DNA from: Fimbriiglobus ruber
GTDB lineage: Bacteria; Planctomycetota; Planctomycetia; Gemmatales; Gemmataceae
Length of the DNA: 64,000 nt
Assembly (NCBI RefSeq): GCF_002197845.1
Contig: NZ_NIDE01000017.1
Span: forward strand, 480,712 to 544,711
Direction of reading: 5' to 3'
In this document: positions 42,215-54,430 of the stretch, piece by piece
Numbering within the stretch: position 1 is the first letter of the stretch
Layout: each line of letters opens with the position of its first letter
Made by a program: the position numbers and the translations under genes
The notes under the pieces: model-generated
What the model was told of the DNA's origin: nothing
The model's input: only the letters and a program-made list of their open reading frames with translations
Database searches by the model: none

Positions 42215-45200
42215 TTAGTGCGCCATGCTCCCCGACCCGGCCGGCGGTTCCCGGTGGCCGTAGAAGCTGTACAGCACCGGCATGAGGTACTGGGTCAGGA
42301 GCAGTGAGGTAATCATCCCGCCGACGACCACGATCGCCAGCGGTCGTTGGGTCTGGACGCCGATCGGCTCGATCAACCGGAAGTGCCCGGTCACGTCCGT
42401 CTCGGGGCGGAGGGCCAGGGCCGCCGGGAGCAGGCCGAGGATCGCCGTCATCCCGGTCATCACCACCGGGCGGACTCGCTTCTCGGCCCCCTGACGGATC
42501 GCCTCGTCCAGCGATAGTCCCTGGGCGCGGAGGGCGTTGAAGTACGACACCATGAGCAACCCGCCCATGATCGCCACCCCGAAGAGGGAGACGAACCCGA
42601 CCGCCGCCGAGGTGCTGAAGTTGGTCCCGGTAATCAGCAGTGCCCAGATCCCGCCGACGGACAACGCGACCACGTTCGACAAGACCACGAGCGCGTCCAG
42701 GAGCGACCCGAAGGCCAGGTAGAGCAGCACGAAAATCAGCGCGAGGGCGATCGGGATGATGAGCAGCAGCCGGGCTTCCGAGTCTTTCATCTGCTCGAAC
42801 TCCCCGCCCCACTCGGTCTTGTACGGCAGCGGGATCAGGTCGGCGGTCGCCTTCTTCGCGTCCTCGACGGCGCCGGCCAGGTCGCGGCCGCGGACGCTGA
42901 ACTTGACGGCGATCATCCGCCGGCCCTGCTCGCGGAAGATCATCGACGCCCCGGGCCGGACGAACGACCCGTCGGCCGTCTGCTTGCCGTCCGGGCCGTA
43001 AGGTGTGATCAGGTCGCCCAGGCGCCGCCGGGGGGTGCCGCCGAGGTAATTCCCGACCGCGTTGAACTGGCTCCCCCAGAGCGACGGCATGGCGTTCGTC
43101 GACCCGTAGGTCGTCAGCCCGACCGCCCCGCCCGTCGTCCGGGTCGGGCCGGTGCCCGCCTGGTAGCCGCCGGAGACCTGGTGGTTCAGGATGTCGACCG
43201 GGATGTCCAGGATCGCCCGCTCGTTGTCCCGCAGCGCCTGCGGCCACCGGAGGGTGACGTCGAAGATCTTCTCACCCTCCCGCATCTGGGTCGCGGCCTG
43301 CCCGCCCACGGCGGTCTGGATCACGTTCTGGAGGTCGGCGACACTGACGCCCCACCGCTTGCATTTTTCCGGATCCCAGGGGAGTTCCAGGTTCGGCTGG
43401 CCCATCACGTCCAACACCCCGACGTCCTCGACGCCGGGGACCTTGTGTAGCCGCGCTTCCACCAACTCGGCGAGTCGCTGGAGTTCGTTCAGGTCCGGCC
43501 CGTAAATCTTGACCGAGTTATCTCCCTTGACCCCGGAGATCGACTCCATCACGTTGTCGCGGATGTTTTGGGAGAAGTTCCAGTCCACCCCCGGGGTCGC
43601 CGTCCGGAGGTCGGCCGTCATTTCGGCAACCAATTCCTGCTTGGTCCGCGGCCGCATGTCCCCGAGCCACTTGTACCACCCGGTCGCGGGCTTGGTCGCG
43701 GGCCACTGGCCGCGGGGCTTGAGCGGGACGAAGAACTCGGACTTGTAGAACCCCTCGGGGTCGGTCCCGTCGTCCGGGCGGCCCATCTGGTTCGCGATCG
43801 CGTCGATCTCGGGGTACTTCCGCATCACCGCCCGGGCCGCCCGCGAGCCCTCGGCCACGTTGTCCAGCGAGGCGTTCCGCGGGTACATCCCGCGGACCCA
43901 CAGGTTGCCTTCCTCCAACTCCGGCATGAATTCCCGGCCCAACCCGCCCAACGCGAGCCCGGTGACGGCCAGCAGGCTGAGCATGAACGCCACGAACAGC
44001 CACCGGAACCGCAGGCAGTAGCCCAGGGCCCAGAGGTACTGGTGTTTCATTCCGCGGACCAGGAAGTTGTCCCGCGTCGGGCGGACGTTGCCCAACAACA
44101 GCTTGCACAGGACCGGCGTCAGGACGACGGCCAGCATCAGCCCGCCGGCGAGCGCGAAGGCGTAGGTGTCGGCCATCGGCCCGAAGAGTTGGCCCTCGGC
44201 CCCCTTCATGGCGAACAGCGGGATGAACGCGCACACCATGATCGCGGTCGAGAACAACAGGGCCCGCTGGATTTCTCCGCTAGAGTGCAGGATGCGGTCC
44301 CGCAGCGACTCCTCCGTGTCTTCCCCGGACGTCAGCTTGCGGTAAATGTTCTCGGCCATGATGACGGACGAGTCGACGATGATCCCGAAGTCGACCGCCC
44401 CGATCGACAGTAGGTTCGCCGACCGCCCGCGGACGTACAGGACGGCGAACGCGAACAGCAGGGCGAGCGGGATGTTGATCGCGACGATCATCGCGACCCG
44501 GACGTTCCCCAGGAACACGAGCAGGATCAACGACACCAGCGCGATCCCGACCACGAGGTTCTCGCGGACCGTTTCGGTGGTGAGGTTGATCAGATCGGTC
44601 CGGTCGTAGTACGGCTCGATCTTGACGCCGGGGAGCAACCGCCCGCCGTTCGCGTCGTTCAACTCGTCGACCTTGGTGTGGACCCCGGCGAGGGCCGGCA
44701 GCGAGTCCTCCCCCTTGCGGAGCAGGACGATGCACTGGACCTTTTCTTCCTCGTCGTTCCAAAGGACGTTCCCGTCCGCGTCTTTCAAGACATTCCCGTG
44801 TCCGTCTTTCTTGGGCGTACTCAGGCTCACCCGGCCCAGCCGGGTTTGGTTGCCGACCACGACCCCGCGGGCCCCGAGTTCCATCTCGTACGTGAGCGGC
44901 CCGCCCTCGACGAGGTCTTCGACCCGGACCGGCGTGTTGTTGATCGTGGTCACGACGGTGTCGCGGAGCGCGCGGAGCCGGCGATCGTCTTCAGACCGCA
45001 ACTTGGCGGCGGCCGCGGCCGGGTCGGTCGCGCCGAGGACTTCCTTCGATTGCATCGGGTCGAGCCCGCCGCCGTAGAGGCCGATCCCCCGGACGTTGAC
45101 GGCGTTCCCGCCCTGGGCCAGCACGTCGCCGCCGGTGTTCTGGTTGGCGGACGCCAGGGCCGACTGGAACTGGCCGAGGGTGACACCGTACCGTCGCAGC

Positions 45201-45793
45201 CGGTCCGGGTCCGGGCGGATCTCGTACCGCTTCACGGTCCCGCCCGCGCTGGTCACGTCGATGATGCGGGGCACCCGCCGGAACTCGCGCTCGAGACTCC
45301 AGTCCTGGAGGGCTTTAATGTCGTTCAGCGTGTAAATGTCGGCCCCGGACGCGTCTTTCGGGACGGACAACGTGTACCGGTAAATCTCGCCCGTCGGGCT
45401 CGTGGGGGAAAGGACCGGGATGACGCCGGACGGGAGGGCCTGCGTGAACTGGAGCCGGTTGATGACCGTCTGTTGGGCTTTCTCGTAAGGGACGTCGTAC
45501 TCGAACTGACACCGCAGGTTGGACAACCCGAACAAGGACCGGGTCCGCGTGGTCTTCAGCCCCGGCATCCCGGCGAGGGTGACTTCCAGTGGGATGGTGA
45601 CCTGCCGCTCGATTTCCTCGGCCGACGCGCCGGGGTACTGGGCGATCACCTCGACGATGGCCGGAGCCGGGTCCGGGTACGCCTCCACGTTGACGCGGAC
45701 GAAGGCCAACCCGCCGAACCCCCCGAGCATGATTCCCATGAGGATGACAATGAGGGGGTTGTCGACGGCCCAACCGATGACGCGCTGAAGCAT
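42215..45793 (-). CDS. RND efflux pump, heavy-metal (CusA/CzcA) type
   Basis: This inner-membrane proton-driven exporter has 1,192 residues. The ATG at 45793 starts MLQRVIGWAVDNPLIVILMG, as in the HME-RND family. The helix-4 motif GAVDFGIIVDSSVIMAENIY holds the proton-relay aspartates, and porter-domain segments such as YPGASAEEIERQVTIPLE are typical. It is about 145 residues longer than CusA. The extra residues lie mainly in two periplasmic inserts, one KDGHGNVLKDADGNVLWN and one around LTTYGSTNAMPSLWGSQF. It is encoded after its adaptor. No outer-membrane factor is adjacent. Copper or silver export is possible, but the metal is not proven. Confidence 0.88.
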   Translation of the reverse strand: MLQRVIGWAVDNPLIVILMGIMLGGFGGLAFVRVNVEAYPDPAPAIVEVIAQYPGASAEEIERQVTIPLEVTLAGMPGLKTTRTRSLFGLSNLRCQFEYDVPYEKAQQTVINRLQFTQALPSGVIPVLSPTSPTGEIYRYTLSVPKDASGADIYTLNDIKALQDWSLEREFRRVPRIIDVTSAGGTVKRYEIRPDPDRLRRYGVTLGQFQSALASANQNTGGDVLAQGGNAVNVRGIGLYGGGLDPMQSKEVLGATDPAAAAAKLRSEDDRRLRALRDTVVTTINNTPVRVEDLVEGGPLTYEMELGARGVVVGNQTRLGRVSLSTPKKDGHGNVLKDADGNVLWNDEEEKVQCIVLLRKGEDSLPALAGVHTKVDELNDANGGRLLPGVKIEPYYDRTDLINLTTETVRENLVVGIALVSLILLVFLGNVRVAMIVAINIPLALLFAFAVLYVRGRSANLLSIGAVDFGIIVDSSVIMAENIYRKLTSGEDTEESLRDRILHSSGEIQRALLFSTAIMVCAFIPLFAMKGAEGQLFGPMADTYAFALAGGLMLAVVLTPVLCKLLLGNVRPTRDNFLVRGMKHQYLWALGYCLRFRWLFVAFMLSLLAVTGLALGGLGREFMPELEEGNLWVRGMYPRNASLDNVAEGSRAARAVMRKYPEIDAIANQMGRPDDGTDPEGFYKSEFFVPLKPRGQWPATKPATGWYKWLGDMRPRTKQELVAEMTADLRTATPGVDWNFSQNIRDNVMESISGVKGDNSVKIYGPDLNELQRLAELVEARLHKVPGVEDVGVLDVMGQPNLELPWDPEKCKRWGVSVADLQNVIQTAVGGQAATQMREGEKIFDVTLRWPQALRDNERAILDIPVDILNHQVSGGYQAGTGPTRTTGGAVGLTTYGSTNAMPSLWGSQFNAVGNYLGGTPRRRLGDLITPYGPDGKQTADGSFVRPGASMIFREQGRRMIAVKFSVRGRDLAGAVEDAKKATADLIPLPYKTEWGGEFEQMKDSEARLLLIIPIALALIFVLLYLAFGSLLDALVVLSNVVALSVGGIWALLITGTNFSTSAAVGFVSLFGVAIMGGLLMVSYFNALRAQGLSLDEAIRQGAEKRVRPVVMTGMTAILGLLPAALALRPETDVTGHFRLIEPIGVQTQRPLAIVVVGGMITSLLLTQYLMPVLYSFYGHREPPAGSGSMAH

Positions 45794-45919
45794 AGGCTCG
45801 AATCGGGGCAAAGGAGGAGGGGCATTAAAACGGGCGTGCCCGGGACAAAGTCCCGGGCGTTCCGACACGATGCGACCGCGGCGGAGACTGCCGTTCGCGG
45901 GCAGCCTGATGGGGGTGGG

Positions 45920-47413
45920 TTATTTCTTCCCGCCGTGCAGGATCGTGAATTCGTTGGCGAGGTCGATCGCGCCGCGGGAAACCACCGTTTCGCTCGGCAG
46001 GACCGGCTTGGCGCCGCGGGCGGTCTCGGCGTCGGTCGGGGTTTTGCGGAGGAAGATCGTCTCGCGCCCGCGGACCGCGACGGCGACCTTCCGCCGCTCG
46101 AACTTCCGGGCGGCCGGGTCGGTCGCGACCAGAACCGAAGACCCGTCCATGTCTTCGATCACGGCGCCGGTCGGGACGGCCACGAGGCTCGGGTCCGGCC
46201 GCAGGGCCACGGTGGCGGTCACGAACTGGCCGATGAACAACTTGCCCTGCTTGTTCTCGACCCACCCGGTGACCGTGCCGGTGTGCTGCATCGGGTCGAT
46301 CAGCACGCCGAGGCGGTCGAAGTACCCGGCCTCGGTCGCCCCGGTCCCTTCCGCCTGGAAGTTGATCGTCCACGCCCGCAGGCTTTCGGACTTGTGCCGG
46401 AGTTCGTCGGCCGCGCCGTCGCTGCCCGTCTCCGCGGCGGCGGTCGACCGGCCGGTGGCGGCGTCGGCCGCGCGGGCCAGTCGCTGGAGTTTGGGGAGGT
46501 CTTCTTCGTAGACGTTCACGAGAACCTGGAGGCGGTCGAGTTTGGCGACCTTGTACAGGTCCGTGGTCGGATCAACGACGTCGCCGACCGTCACGTTCTT
46601 CTCGACGATAACCCCATCGAACGTCGCCCGGATCGGGTACTCGGCCCACGTCCGTTCGAGGTCCAGGTCGCGCGGGGCGGTCGGTTCCTTCAGTTTTTCC
46701 GCCTCCCGCTTCACGATTTCGATCTCTTCCTCGGTGAACTGGGCCGACCGGAGGTTCCGTTCCGCGTTCCGGACCATGACCAAGTCATTTTCGTATGCAC
46801 GGCGGGTGGTCGTCATTTGGGTCTGGGTGATGATGCCAGGGTCGACCGACAGGTATCGGTCGAGTTGGTTCTTATCCGCGCGGAGCTGGGAGACCTGGTT
46901 GACCAGGTCGGTTTTCATCGCACCGACGTCCTTCGACCAGACGGTGGCAAGAATTTGGCCCCGCTTCACCTCGTCCCCCGGCCGCAACCCCTTCTCCGGC
47001 GTATTCGACAGGCGGTCGGAGGTGGGCGACATGTCGCCGCGGATACCAACCTTGGCGACCTGCCCCGAGAACAGACTGTGGACCCGCGAGTAACGGTTCG
47101 GGTCGAGGACGACCGACCCGGGCAGGCGGAGCGGTTCCGGCGGCGGCGCGTCCGCGACTTTGGCCGTCGCGAACCGGTGCGAATCGAACAGCTCCTGGGG
47201 AACCACGAACACGTCCGGGCTGCCGGAATCCGCCTCGATCCGAGCCCCGGCGTCCGGAGTCACCGAAGGAACCGGAACGACCGCGGCGCGAACGGACGCC
47301 CACTTGCCAACGAGTTCCGGGCGGTACAGCCAAACAAGGCCGACCGCAACCAGAACAACAGACAGGACAATTCCCCGGGTGATAGCACGGCGGGAAATGG
47401 AAAACAAAGACAT
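45920..47413 (-). CDS. RND periplasmic adaptor (membrane fusion protein)
   Basis: This CusB/HlyD-type adaptor links the inner-membrane pump to an outer-membrane channel. The roughly 497 residues begin with a membrane anchor (AITRGIVLSVVLVAVGLVWLY). They show a barrel-sandwich half (GSVVLDPNRYSRVHSLFSGQ), a long coiled-coil hairpin, and a second half with GVIVEKNVTVGDVVDPTTDL. The start is ATG 47413, or GTG 47425. The pump gene follows after 126 bases on the same strand, so the two form an operon. Confidence 0.88.
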   Translation of the reverse strand: MSLFSISRRAITRGIVLSVVLVAVGLVWLYRPELVGKWASVRAAVVPVPSVTPDAGARIEADSGSPDVFVVPQELFDSHRFATAKVADAPPPEPLRLPGSVVLDPNRYSRVHSLFSGQVAKVGIRGDMSPTSDRLSNTPEKGLRPGDEVKRGQILATVWSKDVGAMKTDLVNQVSQLRADKNQLDRYLSVDPGIITQTQMTTTRRAYENDLVMVRNAERNLRSAQFTEEEIEIVKREAEKLKEPTAPRDLDLERTWAEYPIRATFDGVIVEKNVTVGDVVDPTTDLYKVAKLDRLQVLVNVYEEDLPKLQRLARAADAATGRSTAAAETGSDGAADELRHKSESLRAWTINFQAEGTGATEAGYFDRLGVLIDPMQHTGTVTGWVENKQGKLFIGQFVTATVALRPDPSLVAVPTGAVIEDMDGSSVLVATDPAARKFERRKVAVAVRGRETIFLRKTPTDAETARGAKPVLPSETVVSRGAIDLANEFTILHGGKK

Positions 47414-48469
47414 GTTGCCACTCACGGGTGTGTGGGGAGAGGTCCGGGAGCAGGAAGTACGGTTTCTAACAATTTACTGAGCGAGCAACCGCGGTGCCAA
47501 CGCCGCAATACCGCCGAACTACGTCCGTTTTTACGCCTTGTTGCGGAAAAGGGTTCGCCGCGGTCACGCGGTGTGCTGACTGCTGGCAGGGGGGCTTTCA
47601 AAGTGAGCGCGTGCCGACCAATAACAACCCTACGAATCGCGGAAGTTCCTCATTTTTTCGGCGAGAGCCCAGTCAAATGTAAGCAGACCGATCGCGCCAT
47701 CCCGAATAAAACGCTGGAGGCAAAGACCCTTTGTGAGAAGGCGGTGAGAAAGAGTACACCGACGCGACCCGGAGACTTCGCGTCGGGAGCATGCTGGCGA
47801 TCAGTTCGCCGTTCAACGGGTCGAGCGTCGCCCTGCGTCGATCTTGAAACGATACGACCGAGCGAAAAAATGAAAAGGCTTTCCGGTATCGACAGGGCGT
47901 ACACGCCAGGCGGCGAATAGATGCCAAATATCATATCGCAATAACGTCATTAACAGCATATTTGTAACATTTATAACATCTGCTGCAAAGTGAAAGAATC
48001 CTACATTCTCACTTTCACACCGGACCTTCGCGTTCGGGATTAGCCATGTCGGATAGAACCGTAATCCATTACTTCGGCTGCCCCTCCGCACGAAACCGAC
48101 AGTGGACACCCGTCTATCGACTGAGATTCGACGAAAATTGGCGGCTTCTTTCCCCAGGTTTGGTGCTTAGGGGGATATGCCCGTCTGCCGAGAGGACTCC
48201 GGCGACGTAATTCGACCGATGCTCGGTGAAGGAACTGTCACCTCATCGGCGGGAGTTGTTGCCCGGCGCCGCCGCGCCCTCCTGCAAGCCGCCAGCAGTA
48301 CCGATCATACGGTCTTAACAACGGCAGATCGACGACGATGACCGTTAACCTGAATGCCCCACCAGCGTCGGTCCCACGGACCCGCGGCTAACATCCTGAA
48401 GATCATCACTCGGCCATCGCATAGTTCGAATGATTACTTGAATGATATCCTGGACATCGGAGATCGGTT
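47414..48469. other. 1-kb non-coding region
   Basis: No convincing gene lies here. Short frames in both directions lack ribosome-binding sites and look like shadows. The stretch 47925-48010 is AT-rich and may carry promoters for the divergent adaptor and giant genes. No repeat or RNA gene was recognised. Confidence 0.4.
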
Positions 48470-51400
48470 GTGATCACGCCCTTCGTCTGGCGAAAGTGGT
48501 TGGCCCAATTAAACACCCGCCATCGGCCACTCGCCCGGCTGCGGCTGGAAATGACGCCTCTGGAAGACCGCGTGGTGCCGAACGGCACAGTGGCATTCAC
48601 TTCCGGCGGTGAGACGATCAACGCGGCCGCCGGGACGTTCAGCATTCCGGTCACGCTCACGGGCCGCACGCCAAACTCCAGCACCTTCGCCTCCGGGTTC
48701 GATGGTGCCGCGGGCACGGCGGTCGACGCGACCGGCAACGTCTTCGTCAGCAACACCAACAGCGACACGGTGAGCGAGGTCACGCTCGCGGGGAACGTCA
48801 GCACCTTCGCCACTGGGTTCGATGCGCCCGAGGGCCTGGCGTTCGACGCGACCGGCAACCTGTTTGTCGCCAACTTCGCCAATAACACGGTGAGCGAGGT
48901 GACGCCCGCGGGCGTCGTCAGCACGTTCGCCACCGGGCTCGACGCACCCGCCGGTCTGACGTTCGACGCGGCCGGCAACCTGTTCGTCACCAACGACAAC
49001 GACGGCACGGTAAGCGAAGTCACGCCCGCGGGCGTCGTCAGCACCTTCGCTTCCGGATTCAACTCGCCTTTTGGTCTGGCGTTCGATGCGGCCGGCAACC
49101 TGTTCGTCGCCAACGCCGCCGGCAACACGGTGAGCGAGGTCACGCCCGCGGGCGTCGCCAGCACTTTCGCCACCGGGTTCGACGATCCCACCGGCCTGGC
49201 GTTCGACACGGCCGGCAACCTATTCGTCGGCAGCTACAGCAATAACGTGGTGAGCGAAGTGGCGCCTGGGGGGAGCGTCAGTACCTTTGCCTCCGGGCTC
49301 GACGCACCCGCCGGTCTGGAGTTCGACGCGGCCGGCAACCTGCTCGTCGCCAACTTCGCCGGCAACACGGTGACTCAGTTTTCCGTTCCCAGTGTGAGCG
49401 TGCCGTTCATACTGGGCGGAAGCGCGATCGGCGGTGGGGTCGATTACAGCGGGGTGACGAACGGGCCGCTGGTGTTCGCCTTCGGGCAGACGACGGCCGA
49501 CATCACCGGAACCCTGAACGGCAACCTCGGTGGCAGCCGGACGTTGGAGGTCGACCTGGGCACGCCCACGAACGCGACCCTCGGCACCCCGCGGTCAACG
49601 ACCTGATAATCACGACGCCCGCGACGGTGCAGTTCGAGTCCGGCAGCGAGTCGGTCGATGCGACCGCCGGGACGTTCAGCATCCCGGTCACACTCGCGGG
49701 CGTTACATCCGATCCCAGCACCTTCGCCGCCGGGTTCGTAGGTTCCGTGGACGTGGCGTTCGACGCGGCCGGCAACCTGTTCGTCGCCAACAAATTCGGC
49801 GACACGGTGAGCGAGGTCACGCCCGCGGGGTCGTCAGCACCTTCGCCGCCGGGTTCGAGGCGCCCGTGGGTCTGGCGTTCGACGCGGCCGGCAACCTGTT
49901 CGTCGCCAACCAAACCAATGGCACGGTGAGCGAGGTCACGCCCGCGGGCGTCGTCAGCACCTTCGCTTCCGGATTCAACTCGCCTTTTGGTCTGGCGTTC
50001 GATGCGGCCGGCAACCTGTTCGTCGCCAACCAAACCAATGGCACGGTGAGCGAGGTCACGCCCGCGGGCGTCGCCAGCACTTTCGCCACCGGGTTCGACG
50101 ATCCCGTGGGTCTGGCGTTCGACACGGCCGGCAACCTGTTCGTCGCCAACTCCAACGGCAACACGGTGAGCGAGGTCACGCCCGCGGGCGTCGTCAGCAC
50201 CTTCGCCCCCGGGTTCGACGATCCCACCGGCCTGGCGTTCGACGCGGCCGGCAACCTGTTCGTCGCCAACTCCAACGGCAACACGGTGAGCGAGGTCACG
50301 CCCGCGGGCGTCGTCAGTACCTTCGCCGCCGGGTTCGATGCGCCCGTGGGTCTGGCGTTCGACGCGGCCGGCAACCTGTTCGTTGCCAACGAATTTGCTA
50401 ATTCGGTGGGCGAGGTCACGCCCGCGGGCGTCGTCAGTACGTTCGCCCCCGGGTTCGACAATCCCACGGGCCTGGCGGTGGGCACGGCCGACAACCTGTT
50501 CGTCGCCAACCAAACCAATGGCACGGTGAGCGAGGTCACACCCGCGGGCGTCGTCAGCACCTTCGCTTCCGGATTCAACTCGCCTTTTGGTCTAGCGTTC
50601 GATGCGGCCGGCAACCTGTTCGTCGCCAACGCCGCCGGCAACACGGTGAGCGAGGTGACGCCCGCGGGCGTCGTCAGCACCTTCGCCTCCGGGCTCGACG
50701 ATCCCGTGGGTCTAGCGTTCGACGCGGCCGGCAACCTGTTCGTCGCCAACGCCTTCGGCGACACGGTGAGCGAGGTGACGCCCGCGGGCGTCGTCAGCAC
50801 GTTCGCCGCCGGGTTCGACGAGCCCGGCGGTCTGACGTTCGACGCGGCCGGCAACCTGTTCGTCGCCAACGACGGCGACAACACGGTGAGCGAGGTGACG
50901 CCCGCGGGCGTCGTCAGCACCTTCGCCACCGGGTTCAGCGCGCCTACGGATCTGGCATTCGACGCGGCCGGCAACCTGTTCGTCGCCAACAACGGCGACA
51001 ACACGGTGAGTGAGGTCACGCCCGCGAACGTCACCAGCACGTTCGCCTCCGGGTTCGACGATCCCGTGGGTCTGGCGTTCGACGCGGCCGGCAACCTATT
51101 CATCGCCAACAACGGCGACAACACGGTGGGTAAGGTTTCTATATTTAGTGTGACCGTGCCGTTCACGCTGGGCGGGACCGCGGTCGGCGGGGTTGATTAT
51201 AGCGGGGTGACGAGCGGCCCGCTGGTGTTCGCCTTCGGGCAGACGACGGCCGACATCACCGGAACCCTGATCCCCGGCACCGGCGGCGTCAAGACGCTCA
51301 GCATCACGCTCGGCACTCCAACTAATGCCGCTCTCGGCATTCCCGAGACCAACACCCTCTCGATCGTCAAATCTGCGACGGTACAATTCGCCACCGGCAG

Positions 51401-54400
51401 CGAATCGGTCGACGCGGCCGCCGGGACGTTCAGCATCCCGGTCACACTCGCGGGCACTCCCGCTGCCATCGCCACACCCTTCGCCTCCGGGCTCGACGGG
51501 CCCGAGGATCTGGCGTTCGACGCGGCCGGCAACCTGTTCGTCACCAACTATGACAATTTCTACGTGAGCGAGGTGACGCCCGCGGGGGTCGTCAGCACGT
51601 TCGCCACCGGGTTCGACGGCCCTGTGGGTCTGGCGTTCGACGCGGCCGGCAACCTGTTCGTCGCCAACTCCGTAAACGACACGGTGAGCGAGGTGACGCC
51701 CGCGGGCGTCGTCAGCACGTTCGCCACCGGGTTCGACGATCCCGAGGGTCTGGCGTTCGACGCGGCCGGCAACCTGTTCGTCGCCAACGACAACACGGTG
51801 AGCGAGGTGACGCCCGCGGGCGTCGTCAGCACGTTCGCCACCGGGTTCGCCGATCTCAGTGAGCTAGCGTTCGACGCGGCCGGCAACCTGTTCGTCGCCA
51901 ACAATTTCAGTAACACGGTGAGCGAGGTGACGCCCGCGGGCGTCGTCAGCACGTTCGCCACCGGGTTCAACGAGCCCAACGGTCTGGCGTTCGACGCGGC
52001 CGGCAACCTGTTCGTCACCAACGATTTCGATTACACGGTGAGCGAAGTGACGCCCGCGGGGGTCGTTAGCACGTTCGCCACCGGGTTCGATAATCCCAAA
52101 GGCCTGACGTTCGACGCGGCCGATAACCTGTTCGTCGTCAACTTCCCCGTCAGCACGGTGAACGAAGTCCGCGCTCCCAGCGTGAGTGTGCCGTTCACCC
52201 TGGGTGGCACGGCCGTCGGCGGGACGGACTACAACGGAGTGGCGGCCAGTCCGCTGGTGTTCGCCCCCGGGCAGACGACGGCCGACATCACCGGAACCCT
52301 GATCCCCGGCACCGGCAGCCCGCGGACCCTGACCGTCACCCTCGGATCACCGATCAATGCCGTCGCCGGGACGCCCACAACCAACACTCTGACGATCACC
52401 GAACCTGTCCCGACGCTGACCGGCATCAGCCCGGGCACGGTGGCGGCTGGCTCTCCGGATACCCTCCTCACCCTGATTGGTACGAATTTCCTCAGTGGGT
52501 CCACGGCCGACTTCAACGGAACCCCACTGACGACGGCCTTCGTCAGTTCCACCCAGCTGACGGCTATCGTCCCGGCCGCTGACCTGACCACCGCGGGAGC
52601 CGACCAGATCACGGTCGTGACCCCCGGCCGGCCGACCACGGCCGCCCTGACGTTGACCGTAACGTCGATCGTGACCGGCTCGGTCCCGACGCTCACCAGC
52701 CTGAGCCCGTCGACCGGACCGGCGGTCGGCGGGACGACGGTGACTCTCCTCGGCACCAATCTGGGTGGGGCGACCGCCGTCGACTTCGGCGGCGTTCCGG
52801 CCGCGATTGTGAGCGACACCCCAACCCAGATCGTCGCCACCGCGCCCGCCGGAACGGACGGCGCCGTCGATGTCACCGTCACGACTCCGGGCGGTACGTC
52901 GCCCACCACGTCCGCCGACCAATTCACCTACCTCGACCTCCCGACCGTCACGGCCGTCAGCCCGTCAACCGGGTCGACGATTGGGGGACAACGGTCACGC
53001 TCACCGGGACCAACCTGGGCGGCGCCACGACCGTTGACTTCGGCGGGATCCCCGCCGTGATCGTGAGCGACACGGACACTCAGATCGTGGTCACCAGTCC
53101 AGCCGGGGTGGCCGGACTCGCGGCGGTCACGGTCACGACCGCGAGCGGCACGTCGACCGCCACGCCCGCCGACCAGTTCACGTATGTAGCCGCGTCCCCG
53201 ACCACACCACCCACTACGCCGCCAACGACCCCACCCACGGTGCCGCCGACCACGCCACCTACGGTGCCGCCGACCACGCCACCCACCGTACCGCCGCCGC
53301 CGACCATGCCGCCCACCGTACCGCCGCCGCCAGGTGCGCCACCCACTGTGCCCCCGCCACCCACTACGCCGCCTACGGTACCGCCGACGACTCCGCCCAC
53401 CGTACCACCTGCATCGCTAATCGGGTACGCCCAGTTCGCTGTCGGTGCGGACACGGGGGGAACAGTAACCGTGTACAACCCGGACCACTCGGTCGCTTAT
53501 ACGGCTACCCCATTCGGCCCGTCGTTCACCGCCGGCGTCCGGGTCTTCCTGGCCGACGTGAACGGCGACGGCGTACCCGACCTGATTGCCGGGTCCGGAC
53601 CCGGTGTCACCAATCAGGTCGTCGTCCTCGACGGCAAGACCCACCAGCAACTGGTGTCGTTTACCCCCTTCGAATCGTCGTTTACCGGCGGGGTGTTCGT
53701 GACCGCCGGGGACATCAACGGGGACGGCGTGCCCGACATCGTTGTCACCCCGGACCAGGGCGGCGGACCGGTCGTCGTCGTGTACGACGGGGCCGCGGTG
53801 GGTCGGGGGGACGAAGTCCAGGTGGCCCGATTCCTGGGCATCCGCGATCCGGACTTCCGGGGCGGCGCCCGGGCGGCAGTCGGGGACGTGAACGGGGATG
53901 GGATCGCCGACCTGATCGTCTCCGCCGGGGTCGGTGGCGGCCCGCGGGTGTCCATCTACGACGGGACGACGGTCGCGTCGGACACTCCGCGGAATCTGGT
54001 CCCGGACTTCTTCGTGTTTGAAAGCTCGTTGCGGAATGGGGCGTACGTAACCGTCGGTGACGTGACCGGGAAGGGGTACGCGGACCTCATTTTCGGGGCC
54101 GGTCCCGGCGGCAGCGGGCGCGTCCGGATCGTCGACAGCGCCCCCCTGTTGGCGGCCGGCGGGCGTTTCCAGTCACTGGACGACCCGGCGGTGGCGGGGG
54201 CCGAGTTGGCCGATTTCCTGGTCGGAAGTTCGAGCGACCGGGGTGGTGCGCCGGTCGCCGTCGCGAACCTGGACGGAGACAACAAAGCCGACGTGGTGGT
54301 CGGGTCGGGGTCCGGGGGAACGGTGACGGCATACACGGGGGTAGCGATCGCGGCCAACCCCCGCTCCCCGGCGGCCGACCTGGATTTCGACGCCCTGCCC

Positions 54401-54430
54401 GGATTCACCGGCGGGATCTTCGTCGGGTAA
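48470..54430 (+). CDS. Giant extracellular protein: Calx-beta with inserted propellers, IPT/TIG, FG-GAP (3 frameshifts)
   Basis: This is one gene of about 1,987 residues, read in three frames because of single-base deletions near 49592, 49829 and 52986; correcting them restores one frame to the stop at 54430. The N-terminus has the planctomycete surface-protein motif LRLEMTPLEDRVVPN. Three Calx-beta modules follow (first half like GTFSIPVTLAG, second half VPFTLGGTAVGG with DYSG), and each is split by an array of 40-residue NHL/Vgb-like propeller repeats (6, 12 and 6 copies). Then come two or three IPT/TIG domains (52411-53190), a Pro/Thr linker (53200-53410) and five FG-GAP/VCBS repeats such as ADVNGDGVPDLIAGSG. 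It is probably a cell-surface adhesin or matrix protein. The start is GTG. No sorting tail is visible. Confidence 0.85.
48679..49380 (+). repeat. 120-bp tandem repeat array A (6 copies)
   Basis: Six tandem units of 120 bases encode 'STFATGFDAPEGLAFDATGN' followed by 'LFVANFANNTVSEVTPAG'-type blades. The core GGCAACCTGTTCGTCGCCAA is nearly invariant in each unit. The last unit exits into the second half of the first Calx-beta domain at about 49390. Confidence 0.9.
49712..51140 (+). repeat. 120-bp tandem repeat array B (12 copies)
   Basis: Twelve units of the same blade lie between the halves of the second Calx-beta domain. Units 3 and 8 carry the rare NSPFGL variant also present in unit 4 of array A, and unit 4 (VASTFATGFDDP) matches unit 5 of array A. 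That is a sign of block duplication or recombination. A frameshift lies between units 1 and 2. Confidence 0.9.
51475..52170 (+). repeat. 120-bp tandem repeat array C (6 copies)
   Basis: Six units lie inside the third Calx-beta domain. Unit 3 is two codons shorter (FVANDNTVSEV). Unit 6 is degenerate (FDAADNLFVVN) and leads into the second Calx-beta half at about 52170. Confidence 0.9.

Follow-up and report, generated by a model that had tools for sequence, protein, structure and literature searches.

The window analysed here is a 64,000-nucleotide stretch of the Fimbriiglobus ruber genome, and all positions below are counted from its first base unless another locus is named. A propeller gene lies at 48470–54430 on the + strand and can be read from end to end if three changes of frame are allowed. 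Its translation contains three modules, each made of an array of NHL-type blades between two flanks, which we describe as the opening and closing halves of a Calx-beta domain. The original prediction had recognised the Calx-beta pieces and the blades, and both are there; to these must be added domains of the TIG type, a linker rich in P and T, and FG-GAP/VCBS repeats at the C terminus. The parts of the gene are as follows, with the evidence for each in brackets:

48470–48583, + strand: N-terminal region with the LEDRVVP motif (translation)
48584–48664, + strand: module 1, opening half of Calx-beta, strands A and B (HMM, 51 bits; alignment)
48680–49390, + strand: module 1, six NHL-type blades (translation; tandem repeats; HMM; Pfam NHL, SGL and Vgb_lyase)
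49391–49591, + strand: module 1, closing half of Calx-beta (HMM, 112 bits; alignment)
49592–49607, + strand: frame break 1, frame 2 to 1, adjoining a short C run (translation)
49621–49701, + strand: module 2, opening half of Calx-beta (alignment)
49717–51146, + strand: module 2, twelve NHL-type blades (tandem repeats; translation; HMM), probably two rings by analogy with paralogue L042
49826–49836, + strand: frame break 2, frame 1 to 0, in a G run at the end of blade 1 of the 12-blade array (translation)
51147–51365, + strand: module 2, closing half of Calx-beta (HMM, 125 bits; joined halves against Pfam)
51375–51455, + strand: module 3, opening half of Calx-beta (HMM; AlphaFold2 residues 1–27)
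51474–52178, + strand: module 3, six NHL-type blades, predicted to form one closed ring (AlphaFold2 residues 30–268, pLDDT mostly >90)
52179–52397, + strand: module 3, closing half of Calx-beta (HMM, 122 bits; AlphaFold2 residues 274–341)
52404–52661, + strand: choice-of-anchor Z / TIG-like repeat domain (NCBIfam NF058597, 103 bits)
52686–52931, + strand: IPT/TIG domain (Pfam PF01833)
52935–53185, + strand: second IPT/TIG domain, with frame break 3 inside it (Pfam PF01833)
near 52985, + strand: frame break 3, frame 0 to 2, in a G run (translation)
53198–53386, + strand: P/T-rich linker with 24- and 30-bp tandem repeats (repeat search)
53400–54430, + strand: C-terminal FG-GAP/VCBS repeats (Pfam FG-GAP_3, 72.7 bits)

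The LEDRVVP motif, which we take to be typical of planctomycete exported proteins, and the choice-of-anchor Z repeat only suggest a surface location. Adjoining the propeller gene, on the - strand at 42215–47425, are genes for an RND-type efflux pump (1217 aa) and a membrane-fusion-like protein (501 aa), whose frames are intact, unlike that of the propeller gene.

The blades repeat in 40-residue steps with the translated consensus STFATGFDxPxGLAFDAAGNLFVANxxxNTVSEVTPAGVV, except for a single 38-residue blade in module 3. The hand counts of the original prediction, 6, 12 and 6 blades, proved exact, with the arrays starting at 48680, 49717 and 51474. Tandem Repeats Finder, which is independent of translation, reports 120-bp arrays with 77–86% matches. 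On the window blades, the NHL repeat (PF01436) scores 49.6 and 116 bits against a cut-off of 20 and Vgb_lyase (PF24684) scores 55.3 and 152.6 bits against a cut-off of 50; SGL is also above its cut-off, and NCBIfam adds matches to the ScyD/ScyE family.

The assembly does contain the three frameshifts that the original prediction reported; they fall near 49595, 49830 and 52985. Each leaves the sequence one base short at or beside a homopolymer run, and a fourth break of the same kind occurs in L042, an 18-blade paralogue. Breaks linked to homopolymers resemble sequencing errors and may be nothing else, with gene decay as the alternative. In the survey of Pereira and Lupas, many repetitive propellers were frame-disrupted (PMC9218822). 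We left the breaks as they stand in the assembly and based our analyses on modules and paralogues that are intact as sequenced.

In the alignment, each array is preceded by a two-strand opening, xTVxFxxGxExxxAxxGTFSIPVTLxG, and followed by VPFxLGGxAxGGxDYxG...PLVFAxGQTTADITGTL...TLxVxLGxPxNA. With the full window sequence, the Pfam Calx-beta profile (PF03160, cut-off 27) matches part of the closing half only, at 23.4 bits. Joining the halves gives window matches of 21.8 and 23.1 bits, and module 1 gives none; the module 2 match (21.8 bits) covers profile positions 7–96 of 119 and is colinear across the junction. The HMM search that had been proposed as a check on the Calx-beta assignment gave a divided answer: joined halves from the homologues L088 (32.3 bits) and L089_2 (27.1 bits) pass the cut-off, and the window pieces stay just below it, as does an uninterrupted Calx-beta unit from elsewhere in the same genome (24.6 bits). 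A profile built from the joined halves finds the Calx-beta chains of NCX1 and integrin beta-4, again colinear.

The uninterrupted unit belongs to a protein, L045, that carries six of them in the same genome (a 12.36 Mb assembly). Aligned end to end with the joined halves from the nested modules of F. ruber, these units are 47–70% identical, and the main difference is a 4-residue hairpin tip at the place where the propeller sits in the nested modules. Judged by this alignment, the insertion point is the counterpart of the B-C hairpin. The L045 protein itself (L045:2656–8469, 1938 codons) consists of a long VCBS/FG-GAP-like region, the six Calx-beta units and further FG-GAP repeats. We also compared the window modules with NCX1 CBD1. 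Its acidic E-F loop has no counterpart in the aligned window sequence, and an NCX-type calcium site is probably absent from these modules; not every Calx-beta domain binds calcium.

Module 3 (51375–52397) was modelled with AlphaFold2 using an alignment with eight homologous modules. The model has a mean pLDDT of 94.3 and a pTM of 0.83, and it places a closed six-bladed ring at residues 30–268 between well-ordered sandwich halves. The ring matches the TRIM2 NHL domain (7b2r) with a Z of 34.5 and an rmsd of 1.9 over 237 residues, and NHL domains and Pizza6 as a group with Z of 32–35 over about 235–240 residues. A chain of Deinococcus Cu/Zn superoxide dismutase (PDB 9m58/9m59) also matches the six-bladed ring, at a Z of about 31–32. 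The structural matches listed for the module 3 model are all propellers, and the list has no bearing on the Calx-beta fold of the flanks. For the flanks, the strand order, read from the DSSP assignment of the module 3 model, is compatible with a seven-stranded Calx-beta sandwich.

A second model covered blades 7–18 and the closing half of L042, without its opening half. It contains a well-predicted ring at 243–482, whose edge falls precisely where blade 12 gives way to blade 13, and a closing half with a pLDDT of ~39. Because the closing half drops to this value when the opening half is missing, it seems to need its partner, and the two flanks probably belong to a single, divided domain. The case for a sandwich shared by both flanks is strong but indirect, since it draws on pLDDT, DSSP and the truncated control, and the two models were made from different alignments. 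The picture in the original prediction, in which a six-bladed ring sits in a loop of a single sandwich, agrees with the module 3 model and with the disorder of the unpartnered closing half. Its further suggestion of one, two and one complete propellers agrees with the ring modelled for module 3; the twelve blades of module 2 would be two rings by extension from blades 7–18 of L042.

The flanks could instead be independent small domains or linkers, with the propellers strung between them like beads. The Pfam match of the full window sequence, confined to part of the closing half and below the cut-off, speaks for this reading. However, the Calx-beta profile runs through the junction once the halves are joined, the models show an ordered closing half only in company with its opening half, and L045 contains copies in which the same two halves are directly joined, so we regard beads on a string as very unlikely.

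A different question is whether the propellers are virginiamycin B lyase or SMP-30/lactonase enzymes, to which the above-cut-off Vgb_lyase and SGL matches and the ScyD/ScyE matches would point. The Vgb propeller has seven blades, whereas the modelled ring has six. There is also no histidine in module 3, which means that it has neither the seven blades (model) nor the catalytic histidine (sequence) of Vgb, an enzyme that needs a histidine in its active site. According to the title of PDB 2z2p, Vgb H270A is inactive. Furthermore, the blades are near-identical save for their loop patches, unlike what one specialised active site would produce. A Vgb-type enzyme is unlikely despite the Pfam name, and an enzymatic role of either kind seems to us highly improbable.

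We searched about 1,330 genomes with differing queries. A profile of the last blade plus the closing half was far more specific than a protein search, which in near relatives returned mostly generic NHL proteins. Nested modules occur in the F. ruber genome, a Gemmataceae genome (UBA4732), a further Gemmataceae MAG, Chthoniobacter flavus and a Spartobacteria MAG. The nested design is rare, yet it spans two phyla, including Verrucomicrobiota. A scan of viral contigs did not find the nested module.

In the F. ruber genome, the nested arrays have 6, 12 and 6 blades (window), 18 (L042), 6 and 6 (L043), and 6 and 6 (L044). Elsewhere they have 6, 6 and 6 (C. flavus, L089) and 6 each in L071 and L088, the arrays of a Spartobacteria MAG and a Gemmataceae MAG. 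The second array of L043 was counted even though it is split by an IS630-type element, L044 was counted partly by hand (its blades are diverged and its first closing half is frame-broken), and L087 was left out because it contains a run of N. The L043 insertion, at L043:5990–7150 on contig 9 of the same genome, is an IS630-type transposase that interrupts the second blade of one nested propeller and splits this paralogue. In C. flavus, by contrast, all three nested modules of the homologue lie in one unbroken reading frame of 1564 codons, and the frame of L088 is unbroken too.

Multiples of six (6, 12 or 18), for which the original prediction proposed to check homologues, account for 13 of the 14 countable nested arrays. 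The exception is a two-blade nested array (L059 / L142, G076:C127) from a MAG with a completeness of 68%, where either an assembly collapse of near-identical repeats or a genuine short array is possible. Three copies of such a short array might together form a ring. The F. ruber genome also has NHL arrays outside any nesting, with 6 (L046) and 12 (L048) blades, so the number six is a property of the fold and would be expected without nesting. Another Gemmataceae genome encodes a 3069-codon protein with the same blade type (L139:2292–11498) and arrays of 6, 6, 6 and 12, between which the host apparently consists of repeats with a different, beta-helix-like sequence.

The similarity of blade DNA within the 12- and 18-blade arrays has no six-blade period, and the same is true of the 12-blade array of L139. 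Blades at offset 6 fall below shuffles (P 0.96 and 0.98 in the 12- and 18-blade arrays), and blades at offset 1 are above them (P 0.03 in each of these arrays and <0.001 in L139). The most similar pairs of blades are separated by 1 or 5 positions (blades 4/5 at 99% and blades 11/16 at 100%) or belong to different arrays (W1_4/W2_8 at 98%). Given that a six-blade DNA period is missing, the arrays probably did not grow by the copying of whole rings.

This bears on the idea that multiples of six are a mechanical result of whole-propeller duplication, with no selection for complete rings. Both 12 and 18 are simple multiples, and the PAPV ending of blade 12 in the 18-blade array bears some resemblance to that of a terminal blade, as if a former ring had stopped there; an old ring duplication may also have been erased later by conversion. 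However, blades six apart are no more alike than others in any of the three arrays, and the spacing of the most similar pairs, 1 or 5 blades or across arrays, does not fit it either. We consider whole-propeller duplication unlikely as the explanation. The simplest, though unproven, interpretation of the blade sequences is that arrays grow in small steps and that those with complete rings survive.

Among 19 window blades, variation is concentrated at positions 8, 9 and 11 (the D-A loop, which leads from an outermost strand to the innermost one that follows) and 26–29 (the B-C turn, joining strands two and three), and the D-A and B-C loops of a propeller lie on one face. Mean entropy is 2.25 bits in the D-A loop and 2.44 bits in the B-C turn, compared with 0.34 in A-B, 0.36 in C-D and 0.31–0.36 over the strands and those last two loops. 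L042, L088 and L139 have the same pattern. Within the window blades, dN/dS is about 0.9–1.0 in the variable patch and 0.24–0.39 elsewhere. Diversification of the loop patch is suggested by these values, not shown; a dN/dS of about 1, not clearly >1, fits relaxed constraint as well.

One could also read the locus as a decaying gene without present function, whose repeat number and loop variation are leftovers. The breaks (three here, one in L042 and one in L044) and the IS630-type insertion in L043 are what one would cite for it. Against this, the breaks coincide with or adjoin homopolymer runs, where sequencing errors tend to fall; the homologues in C. flavus and L088 are intact; and a constant scaffold with variable loops implies selection, past or present. 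Decay therefore strikes us as quite improbable.

The reading that we prefer, with a probability of roughly 0.7, is a large planctomycete protein of the surface type, in which the B-C loops of three Calx-beta-like sandwiches carry NHL rings and so display variable discs. Each sandwich would fold from two halves that are distant in sequence, which structure prediction strongly supports, and each B-C loop would hold a closed six-bladed NHL-type ring, with two in series in module 2. Only complete rings would return the chain to the start of strand C, so 6, 12 and 18 would be the only blade numbers to persist, even with blades being gained and shuffled singly. In sequence, the D-A/B-C face is hypervariable and the rest of the blade nearly constant. 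A hypervariable face on a constant scaffold would make the protein a stalk that displays variable binding discs, and adhesion or recognition at the cell surface is the most likely role, judging from domain content and the variable face.

A bolder version, which we offer tentatively and think has less than an even chance by some way, is that these are recognition proteins in which the host domain serves as a folding checkpoint for whole rings as the blades shuffle, i.e., a bacterial extracellular counterpart of the fungal allorecognition propellers. The arrays also offer a bacterial example in which the scaffold stays constant and two loops on the same side vary, of use for the study of recognition repertoires and for loop-grafted propeller engineering.

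The folds involved are known, and it is the nesting of a propeller within Calx-beta that appears undescribed. This accords with the novelty claimed in the original prediction: we did not find such nesting in the papers searched, which is weak evidence. Prolyl oligopeptidase and the DPP-IV family also have a propeller within the sequence of another domain, but their host is an alpha/beta hydrolase and their propeller a single, non-repetitive ring, unlike the window modules. NHL propellers (the NHL domains of TRIM2/TRIM71, the sensor domain of M. tuberculosis PknD and the designed Pizza6) share the kind of blade consensus and match the ring. The window ring differs from them in sitting in a sandwich loop, in having near-identical blades and in occurring as one, two or three rings per array. 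The Calx-beta domains of NCX1 (CBD1/CBD2) and integrin beta-4 are colinear with the joined halves, but in the window the tip of the B-C hairpin is replaced by a propeller.

Recently amplified propellers (PMC9218822; WRAP, PMC6805158) likewise have near-identical blades, ongoing amplification and frequent frame disruption. On the current view, repetitive propellers add and drop blades without a counting mechanism, and many arrays are larger or smaller than the preferred number, as expected of amplification without counting (Pereira and Lupas 2022, PMC9218822). In contrast to the arrays of that survey, the nested ones described here almost always make up whole rings, even though their blades seem to be copied singly or in small groups, and a host domain that folds only on ring closure would be a natural counting device.

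The BapP adhesin of Pseudoalteromonas tunicata combines a propeller and Calx-beta-matching sandwiches in one surface protein with a role in biofilms, but its propeller is five-bladed and forms a separate, un-nested N-terminal domain (PMC12153261). In fungi, the WD40 allorecognition propellers of HET-D/HET-E (HNWD) exchange blades between arrays, as happens here, and they have a variable pair in the d-a loop and another in the b-c turn on one face, which the window blades resemble (PMC1805685). In these repeats, codons 7, 9, 25 and 27 are under positive selection and form an interaction surface (PMC1805685). HET-D/HET-E are intracellular NLR proteins with WD40 blades and demonstrated positive selection, whereas the window encodes NHL blades in a surface-type bacterial protein with a dN/dS of about 1.
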